Assembly (NCBI RefSeq): GCF_001267405.1
Contig: NZ_CP012369.1
Span: 2,398,402-2,462,401, forward strand
Source: Moorella thermoacetica
Lineage (GTDB): Bacteria; Bacillota; DSM-521; Neomoorellales; Neomoorellaceae
Direction: 5' to 3'
DNA length: 64,000 bases
Position 1 is the stretch's first letter. The number at the start of each line of letters is the position of its first letter. Shown in pieces: positions 45,884 through 47,919 of the stretch. The notes beneath the pieces are model-generated. The model saw nothing but the letters and a program-made list of their open reading frames with translations. It was not told where the DNA came from and ran no database searches. The position numbers and the translations under genes were made by a program.

Positions 45884-47305
45884 TCAACAAAATTTTCCCG
45901 CCATTTTTACCTGAACGTAAAGGGCGGCTTCCAGGCGCATTTTTTGGATGGCGCAAGCGATTGGTGCCGGCTGGCGCAGGTCGCCGGTAGCAGCCAGGTT
46001 GGCCGCGTGGCAGCCGCCACTGCAATAAAAGCGTGCCCAGCAACGACTGCAGGCCGGCTGGTTATAGACATAAGCCTGGCGGAAGGCTTCCCGCAGCTCG
46101 GGACGCCGGATTCCCTCCCGGACATTACCCAGGCAGTAATCCTTACGCCCGACGAGCTGGTGACAGGGATAGAGGTCCCCTGCCGGGGTTACAGCCAGGT
46201 AACTGGTACCGGCACCACAACCGGTAAGTCTTTTTGTCAGGCACGGCTCGGCAGCGGCATCGATATTGAAATGAAAAAAGGAAAAACCTTTTCCTGCCCT
46301 CGCCCTCTCCAGGTAAATCCGGGCCAGGCGCCGGTACTCCCCTGCCAGCCGGGGTAAATCTTCCTCTTTAATAGCATATTCGGCCTCAGGGGCCGCTACC
46401 ACCGGCTCCATGGACAGGTAACGAAACCCTAACTCTACCATATGCAGGATATCACTGGTAAAATCAAGATTCTGGCGAGTGTAGGTTCCCCGGACCCAGT
46501 AGTCCCGGTGCCCCTGGCTAGCGACAAAATGCTGCTCCCTGGGGACAACTCGTTCATAAGTGCCCCGGCCGGCGGCGTCAGGCCGGTTGAAATCATGGAC
46601 CTCCCGGCGACCATCCAGGCTCAGGATGACGCTCACGCCCTCAGTGATCAAGTAGTTTTCAATTTCCGGGCTTAAGGCCAGGCCATTGGTTGTCAGAGTG
46701 AAGCTGATTCCCTTACCGGCTGCGGCTGCCTTTTCCCGGCCGTAAGCCACCAGTTCCCGGACCACACCGAAGTTCAAAAGGGGTTCCCCACCGAAAAAGT
46801 CTACCTCTACCCGCGGGCGGTTGCCTGCTTCCCGGAAGAGGAGATCGAGGGCCGCATAACCGGTATCCCGGTTCATGAGACCGCGCTCGCTACCGAAGGG
46901 ACCTCCGTCGGCAAAGCAGTAACGGCAGCGCATGTTACAATCGTGGGCAACATGCAGGCAGAGGGCCTGGAGGGAAGGCTGCGGCGGCCGGTAATTCCTG
47001 CCGACTTCATCGACGCTAAAAAGGGTACCGGCGGCCTGTCTGGCTGCCAGTTCCCGGCATACCTCCAGGACGGTAGCCGTTCCCCAGGTCCGGACGGCCC
47101 GGGGCAGGACGGTGATCAAGTCCTCCGCCGTCAGTACGCCCTGTTCCTGACGGTCCCTTAACTCCTCCAGGACATCCCGGGCCGCGGCGTCAATGAGGTG
47201 TACGGCACCGCTGTTGACATCCAGGAGTAGGGTCAGGTCTTCAAAGTCGAACCAGTGCAGGTCACCCTGCCAGTCGACCATTTGCAGGTTTAAGGTTGCG
47301 GTCAA
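45884..47305 (-). CDS. scfB: SCIFF peptide maturase, radical SAM/SPASM thioether-forming enzyme
   Basis: Installs a Cys sulfur-to-carbon thioether in the SCIFF ranthipeptide encoded just upstream. The N-terminal about 90 residues are the RRE-like peptide-binding domain. The radical SAM motif CxxxCxxC is in AHDCNMRCRYCFADGG (near residue 125). The SPASM region has GCGAGTSYLAVTPAGDLYPC, KDYCLGN and CSRCWARFYCSGGCHAAN, supplying ligands for two auxiliary Fe-S clusters. TTG at 47305 is preferred (AAAGGA 8 nt upstream); a GTG six codons earlier is possible. A hairpin separates it from the precursor gene. Confidence 0.94.
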   Translation of the reverse strand: MTATLNLQMVDWQGDLHWFDFEDLTLLLDVNSGAVHLIDAAARDVLEELRDRQEQGVLTAEDLITVLPRAVRTWGTATVLEVCRELAARQAAGTLFSVDEVGRNYRPPQPSLQALCLHVAHDCNMRCRYCFADGGPFGSERGLMNRDTGYAALDLLFREAGNRPRVEVDFFGGEPLLNFGVVRELVAYGREKAAAAGKGISFTLTTNGLALSPEIENYLITEGVSVILSLDGRREVHDFNRPDAAGRGTYERVVPREQHFVASQGHRDYWVRGTYTRQNLDFTSDILHMVELGFRYLSMEPVVAAPEAEYAIKEEDLPRLAGEYRRLARIYLERARAGKGFSFFHFNIDAAAEPCLTKRLTGCGAGTSYLAVTPAGDLYPCHQLVGRKDYCLGNVREGIRRPELREAFRQAYVYNQPACSRCWARFYCSGGCHAANLAATGDLRQPAPIACAIQKMRLEAALYVQVKMAGKFC

Positions 47306-47332
47306 TTTTCTCTTCCTTTCCACATATACAAC

Positions 47333-47358
47333 AAAGGCCCGACAGGTGGTGTCGGGCC
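47333..47358 (-). terminator. Attenuator-like hairpin between scfA and scfB
   Basis: Perfect 9-bp stem GGCCCGACA/TGTCGGGCC (47336-47358), 5-nt loop, then UUUGUUGU on the minus strand. It starts 7 nt after the scfA stop codon, so most transcripts would end after the precursor gene and fewer continue into the maturase gene. Confidence 0.72.
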
Positions 47359-47364
47359 CGGAGG

Positions 47365-47511
47365 TTAGTTCCTGACTTTACGTTCGCAGGGCTGGTTGCT
47401 CACGGTAATGGAGGTCTTACAGGCCGACTGACAAGATACGTGGCAGTTGCCACAGCCGCCTGTCTTAACGCTGGCCTGCAGGCGCGGGGTAAAAACCGTC
47501 TGGATGTGCAT
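47365..47511 (-). CDS. scfA: SCIFF ranthipeptide precursor, variant with five Cys
   Basis: A 48-residue precursor too short for many gene callers. The core GGCGNCHVSCQSACKTSITV followed by SNQPCE matches the SCIFF consensus, except that the Cys normally in KTSCT is Ile35. Cys are at 20, 23, 27, 31 and 42. The residues matching the thioether donor and acceptor in the C. thermocellum peptide (Cys, then Thr five residues on) are kept as Cys31 and Thr36. The ATG follows AAAGGGAGG. The product's role is unknown across the family. Confidence 0.95.
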   Translation of the reverse strand: MHIQTVFTPRLQASVKTGGCGNCHVSCQSACKTSITVSNQPCERKVRN

Positions 47512-47526
47512 ATACGAGGCCTCCCT

Positions 47527-47919
47527 TTAGCGCTTGGAGAATTGTGGCGCCTTGCGCGCTTTCTTTAAGCCGTATTTTCTTCTTTCTTTCATCCGCGGGT
47601 CTCGGGTGAGAAAACCGTTCCGTTTTAATACCGGCCGTAAATCCCCGTCAGCTTGTAAAAGGGCCCGGGCAATGCCCAACCGGATAGCGCCGGCCTGACC
47701 GGTGGTACCGCCGCCTTCCACCCGCGCCAGGACGTCGAAACGCCCGGCCATATCGGTTACCTCCAAGGGCTGGCGGACCAGCATTTCAAGGATCTTCTGG
47801 CCGAAATATTCATTCAGAGGCCGGTTATTAACGATAATACGCCCCTCCCCGGGAACCAGGCGCACCCTGGCGATAGCGTTCTTCCGCCGCCCGGTGCCGT
47901 AAAACTGTACTTGGGCCAT
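47527..47919 (-). CDS. rpsI: Ribosomal protein S9
   Basis: Small-subunit protein of 130 residues whose C-terminal tail reaches the P-site t[21 protein letters not shown] at the start and [24 protein letters not shown] region at the end, with the invariant Lys-Arg terminus, are diagnostic. ATG behind GGAGGCGACCGTT. It follows rplM by 18 nt in the usual L13-S9 operon and is followed, after 15 nt, by the SCIFF precursor gene. Confidence 0.98.

Follow-up and report, generated by a model that had tools for sequence, protein, structure and literature searches.

The question raised by this locus is whether a SCIFF precursor lacking one of the six cysteines in the family name (six Cys in 45 residues) is still an ordinary, functional member of the family, and what its missing cysteine says about the site of the thioether cross-link. 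The window, that is, the whole 64,000-nucleotide stretch of Moorella thermoacetica DNA that was analyzed, carries scfA at 47365..47511 on the minus strand, encoding a 48-residue SCIFF ranthipeptide precursor with the translation MHIQTVFTPRLQASVKTGGCGNCHVSCQSACKTSITVSNQPCERKVRN followed by a stop. The profile search gave matches to TIGR03973 (69.7 bits, E 1.4e-19, cut-off 50) and PF13165 (69.7 bits, cut-off 27), and since these scores lie above the cut-offs, scfA was deduced to be a real SCIFF gene and not a chance reading frame. The translation contains five cysteines (Cys20, Cys23, Cys27, Cys31, and Cys42) and no Asp. The usual fifth-Cys site of SCIFFs, equivalent to Cys36 of CteA, is occupied by Ile35, whose codon ATT (47407..47409, minus strand) is two changes from TGT. 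The sequence-only reading of this DNA had reported five cysteines instead of six and an Ile codon at least two changes from a Cys codon, and both points were borne out by the translation and the family matches. The SCQSACKTS core with its donor Cys and acceptor Thr is present (SCQSACKTSITV, residues 26-37). No second SCIFF was found elsewhere in the same genome, where the sole other match carries stops (E 0.007), and none of the papers in the collection searched names both "SCIFF" and "Moorella."

The adjoining gene, scfB (45884..47323, minus strand), was assigned to the SCIFF maturase, a radical SAM/SPASM enzyme, on the basis of a TIGR03974 match of 531.5 bits (cut-off 425) and alignment to CteB (PDB 5wgg) along its full length (residues 22-472, 442 aligned, 43% identity, E 2.4e-130). 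The radical SAM CxxxCxxC motif reads CNMRCRYC, the SPASM cysteines are present, and all 12 Cys are common to ScfB and CteB, so that the earlier description of this maturase as complete was confirmed. The mechanical start of scfB is the GTG at 47323, 41 bp downstream of scfA; judging from the local sequence, translation may truly begin at the seventh codon, a TTG at 47305 that lies behind AAAGGAAG.

Upstream, the stop codon of rpsI (ribosomal protein S9; 47527..47919, minus strand) lies 15 bp from the scfA start. The rpsI gene directly precedes scfA in the Moorellaceae loci examined, giving the order rplM-rpsI-scfA-scfB, and was not found beside scfA in the other lineages examined, where most loci span ~1.5 to 3 kb on each side. 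Given the 15-bp spacing behind rpsI, scfA may be co-transcribed with the ribosomal protein genes in Moorellaceae. Between scfA and scfB (47335..47359, minus strand) lies a GC-rich, 10-bp hairpin followed by a T-rich tail, resembling a terminator or attenuator, with a terminator-like match and a z of −4.3 (0 of 200 shuffles were equally stable). Most Moorella loci, and also some other lineages, have a comparable hairpin at this position. Such an element would allow more precursor than enzyme to be made and may set the precursor-to-maturase ratio. In three Moorella loci (L007, L060, and L055), the distance from scfA to the start of the maturase match is ~325 to 413 bp versus the usual ~40 bp.

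The absence of the fifth Cys proved to be neither new nor confined to this genome. A class-level search found Ile at this site in 17 of 17 Moorellaceae genomes with a SCIFF, and the precursor was found in all 11 sampled genomes of the genus Moorella, the window's included; named genomes with Ile are M. mulderi, M. stamsii, M. sulfitireducens, and M. thermoacetica DSM 21394. The window's order also holds genomes with Leu (family f3; G020 and G021) and with Cys (f2; G001) at the site. In the phylum draw, TIGR03973 was matched in 318 of 398 genomes, and residue 36 (CteA numbering) was scored in 317, of which 296 were read via the DNA pattern SACKTSxTV and 21 by direct inspection. One genome with a weak family match (G152, 22 bits) was left out of the SCIFF counts, and another with a pattern match without a family match (G135) was excluded as chance. 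Cys36 was missing in 25 of the 317 genomes (8%): 13 with Ile, all Moorellaceae, and 12 with Leu, from three coded families (f3, f23, and f81). Because these members have five cysteines, the six-Cys count was taken to be a label and not a membership rule of TIGR03973. In a separate set of genome contigs, Ile was also found in Desulfotomaculum-type MAGs (L014, L021 to L023, and L020) and Ala in Bacillota MAGs (L046 to L048, L050, and L051). Throughout the genomes surveyed, Cys36 was replaced by Ile, Leu, or Ala and by nothing else. The Ile codon was ATT, ATC, or ATA across the Ile loci, Moorellaceae included, a pattern of varying codon and constant residue that fits selection for Ile. Sequencing error as the source of Ile35 was ruled out by the presence of Ile in all Moorellaceae assemblies. 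The suggestion that this peptide is a special natural variant, with its implied rarity, was thus not upheld; the outcome named at that time as counting against it, an alignment in which many SCIFFs carry Ile here, is largely what was obtained, with Ile and Leu, and Ala elsewhere. The MAGs of two SCIFF loci were filed under Armatimonadetes (L020) and Acetobacteraceae (L039); since L020 clusters with the sequences of Desulfotomaculum type, a binning mistake or a transfer is likely.

The history of the site was deduced from maturase trees. Five changes between Cys and non-Cys were needed on a tree of 183 rows and six on a more careful tree of 58 rows, with at least three forced by strongly supported branches. 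These counts carry no direction, and the changes were taken to be losses of Cys because the Cys form is so widely distributed. A single clade for all five-Cys forms was rejected (p-AU 1.5e-5), as was a single clade for all Ile forms (AU test, p 0.004). On this reading, an aliphatic residue has taken the place of the fifth Cys several times: Ile was gained in the Moorellaceae ancestor and, independently, in bacteria of Desulfotomaculum type, Leu in one lineage at least and probably in two, and Ala in one. The five-Cys state is an old, recurrent substitution in a known family, and ScfA is an ordinary member of that family. The 12 maturase cysteines are invariant in the five-Cys and six-Cys classes alike. 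A compensating maturase change for the lost Cys was also sought, defined as a column that follows the loss of Cys36 across four or more of the five lineages, and no column did so, although with five lineages only the comparison has low power. Because the fifth Cys was repeatedly lost while the maturase kept all of its conserved cysteines, this residue is, on comparative grounds, dispensable for retention of the SCIFF-maturase system. To that extent, the earlier proposal that the lost Cys is not required stands.

The residues that the family keeps were deduced from 188 unique precursors (191 after three were added). Cys21, Cys24, Cys28, and the last Cys, at constant spacing, were present in all of them, and Lys33, Thr34, and Ser35 were invariant, with the qualification that the search expression behind the column counts holds the first three Cys constant and restricts positions 33 to 35; loci failing this pattern were read with looser patterns, and the results agreed. 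At one locus (L118), the first and second Cys lie one residue further apart. Among the 188, position 36 was Cys in 151, Ile in 20, Leu in 12, and Ala in 5, and position 37 was Thr in 180, Gly in 7, and Ser in 1. Beyond the seven precursors with Gly among the 188, three more genomes of the order of G086 have Gly37; the Gly37 peptides form a KTSCG sublineage (L099, L133, L134, L136 to L139, and L234 to L236), and maturases adjoin them. One KTSCG-type pair (L139/L228) lies in a genome of 6.8 Mb (G042), the only f24 member of the draw with a SCIFF match; this pair groups with lineages of smaller genomes, so horizontal transfer is possible. Cys32 was replaced only once, at locus L141 (genome G086, C39:3915-4043), which has Ser (AGC) at the donor position and Ser at position 37. 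This precursor adjoins a near full-length, intact maturase, and its order-mates retain Cys32. The Ser32 of L141 is either a mistake in this single MAG or the sign of an altered cross-link; unless it is a mistake, it is at odds with Cys32 being the donor in every SCIFF.

These data bear on a disagreement over the acceptor. According to two reviews (PMC8326336, PMC8172795), Tte1186a and CteA modified in vitro each contained one thioether, between Cys32 (the fourth Cys) and Thr37, while later coexpression of CteA with CteB in Escherichia coli gave a Cys32-Thr34 link via the gamma-carbon. The equivalents of Cys32, Thr34, and Thr37 in the window are Cys31, Thr33, and Thr36. We hypothesize, from homology to CteB and Tte1186, that the RRE of ScfB binds the N-terminal leader of ScfA and that ScfB would join Cys31 to a neighboring Thr at the gamma-carbon of the latter, the acceptor most likely being Thr33 (Thr34 of CteA), with no essential part for the fifth Cys in thioether formation. 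Glycine cannot serve as a gamma-carbon acceptor. Because Thr34 is invariant and Thr37 has given way to Gly in one sublineage whose maturase is retained, the comparison favors Cys32-Thr34 as the shared SCIFF cross-link. The alternative, that Thr36 is the acceptor and Thr33 merely structural, agrees with the two in vitro studies as these reviews summarize them (PMC8326336, PMC8172795) and with the retention of Thr36 in all Moorellaceae. It would be compatible with the rest of the proposed explanation and was considered unlikely, given the invariance of Thr34, the Cys32-Thr34 product described in one of the reviews for coexpression in E. coli (PMC8326336), and the replacement of Thr37, with maturases present, by Gly in seven sampled genomes and three more of the G086 order and by Ser in one. 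The sequence-only reading had named Cys31 and Thr36 as donor and acceptor; its numbering (fourth Cys and +5) was correct, and Thr36 as the single acceptor was not sustained, as Cys32-Thr34 has also been published and conservation favors Thr33.

A five-Cys peptide could be cross-linked otherwise than CteA. A rival view would make the fifth Cys of six-Cys SCIFFs a second donor of a thioether, with Moorella-type maturases specialized for one cross-link fewer, giving a product that differs in kind. Such a role is consistent with a substitution fixed and retained across a whole family, and further Cys donors are left open by one review (PMC8326336). It was judged very unlikely, since CteA and Tte1186a both have six Cys and are described with one thioether each (PMC8326336, PMC8172795), and since the maturase neither varies in its 12 Cys between the classes nor has a column that goes with five cysteines across four or more of the five lineages. 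The earlier argument, that fewer thioethers are possible once this Cys is lost, is a fair one; it is weak because only one thioether was seen in either characterized SCIFF. That the precursor is a decaying or nonfunctional copy is barely conceivable: its Cys count departs from the six of the family name, but it clears the curated cut-off by a wide margin, its Ile stays constant under a changing codon, its maturase is intact, and no sampled Moorella genome lacks the precursor. It was also considered that the invariant CxxCxxxC and last Cys together build a structural element shared by SCIFFs, for example a metal or Fe-S site or a pair of disulfides, when the peptide is mature or bound to the enzyme, so that the Moorella type, with one thioether and exactly four further Cys, would be the minimal form and Cys36 accessory; this was regarded as quite unlikely. 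The preferred reading, that scfA and scfB are a functional precursor-maturase pair of the ordinary SCIFF (ranthipeptide) kind with a Cys31-Thr thioether and a nonessential, repeatedly replaced fifth Cys, is very probably correct as judged from these comparisons.

Among known systems, the closest likeness is to CteA/CteB (thermocellin) of Clostridium thermocellum, with the same precursor and enzyme families, the ScfB identity and 12 shared Cys given above, and the fourth Cys and the Thr residues at +2 and +5 kept in Moorella ScfA; the Moorella pair differs in having five Cys, with Ile at the fifth site, and in lying directly behind rpsI. Tte1186a/Tte1186 of Caldanaerobacter subterraneus, compared by published description only, is likewise a SCIFF pair, in which a radical SAM maturase of the same kind makes a thioether from the fourth Cys, and differs in having six Cys. 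Freyrasin (PapA/PapB of Paenibacillus polymyxa) is a ranthipeptide from a related radical SAM/SPASM enzyme; the PapB model scored 267 bits against ScfB, below its cut-off of 340, and freyrasin contains six Cys-Asp beta-carbon thioethers in a Cys-x3-Asp motif, unlike the Asp-free ScfA.

Small peptides widespread in clostridia, SCIFFs were matched in most of the genomes drawn from the phylum, and two cross-link sites have been published for them. One review (PMC8102284, citing Chen et al. 2020) describes decreased sporulation gene expression and an increase for the agr locus on disruption of the pair in C. beijerinckii. The variation across 317 genomes separates residues that are kept (Cys21, Cys24, Cys28, Cys32, the last Cys, Thr34, and Ser35) from those that can be lost (Cys36, plus Thr37 in one sublineage). 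The KTSCG sublineage bears on the disagreement between Thr34 and Thr37, and the survey gives testable support to Cys32-Thr34 as the shared cross-link. The Moorella ScfA/ScfB pair is a convenient, simplified test substrate, and its five-Cys form offers a real, if modest, hint of which residues the modifying enzyme needs.
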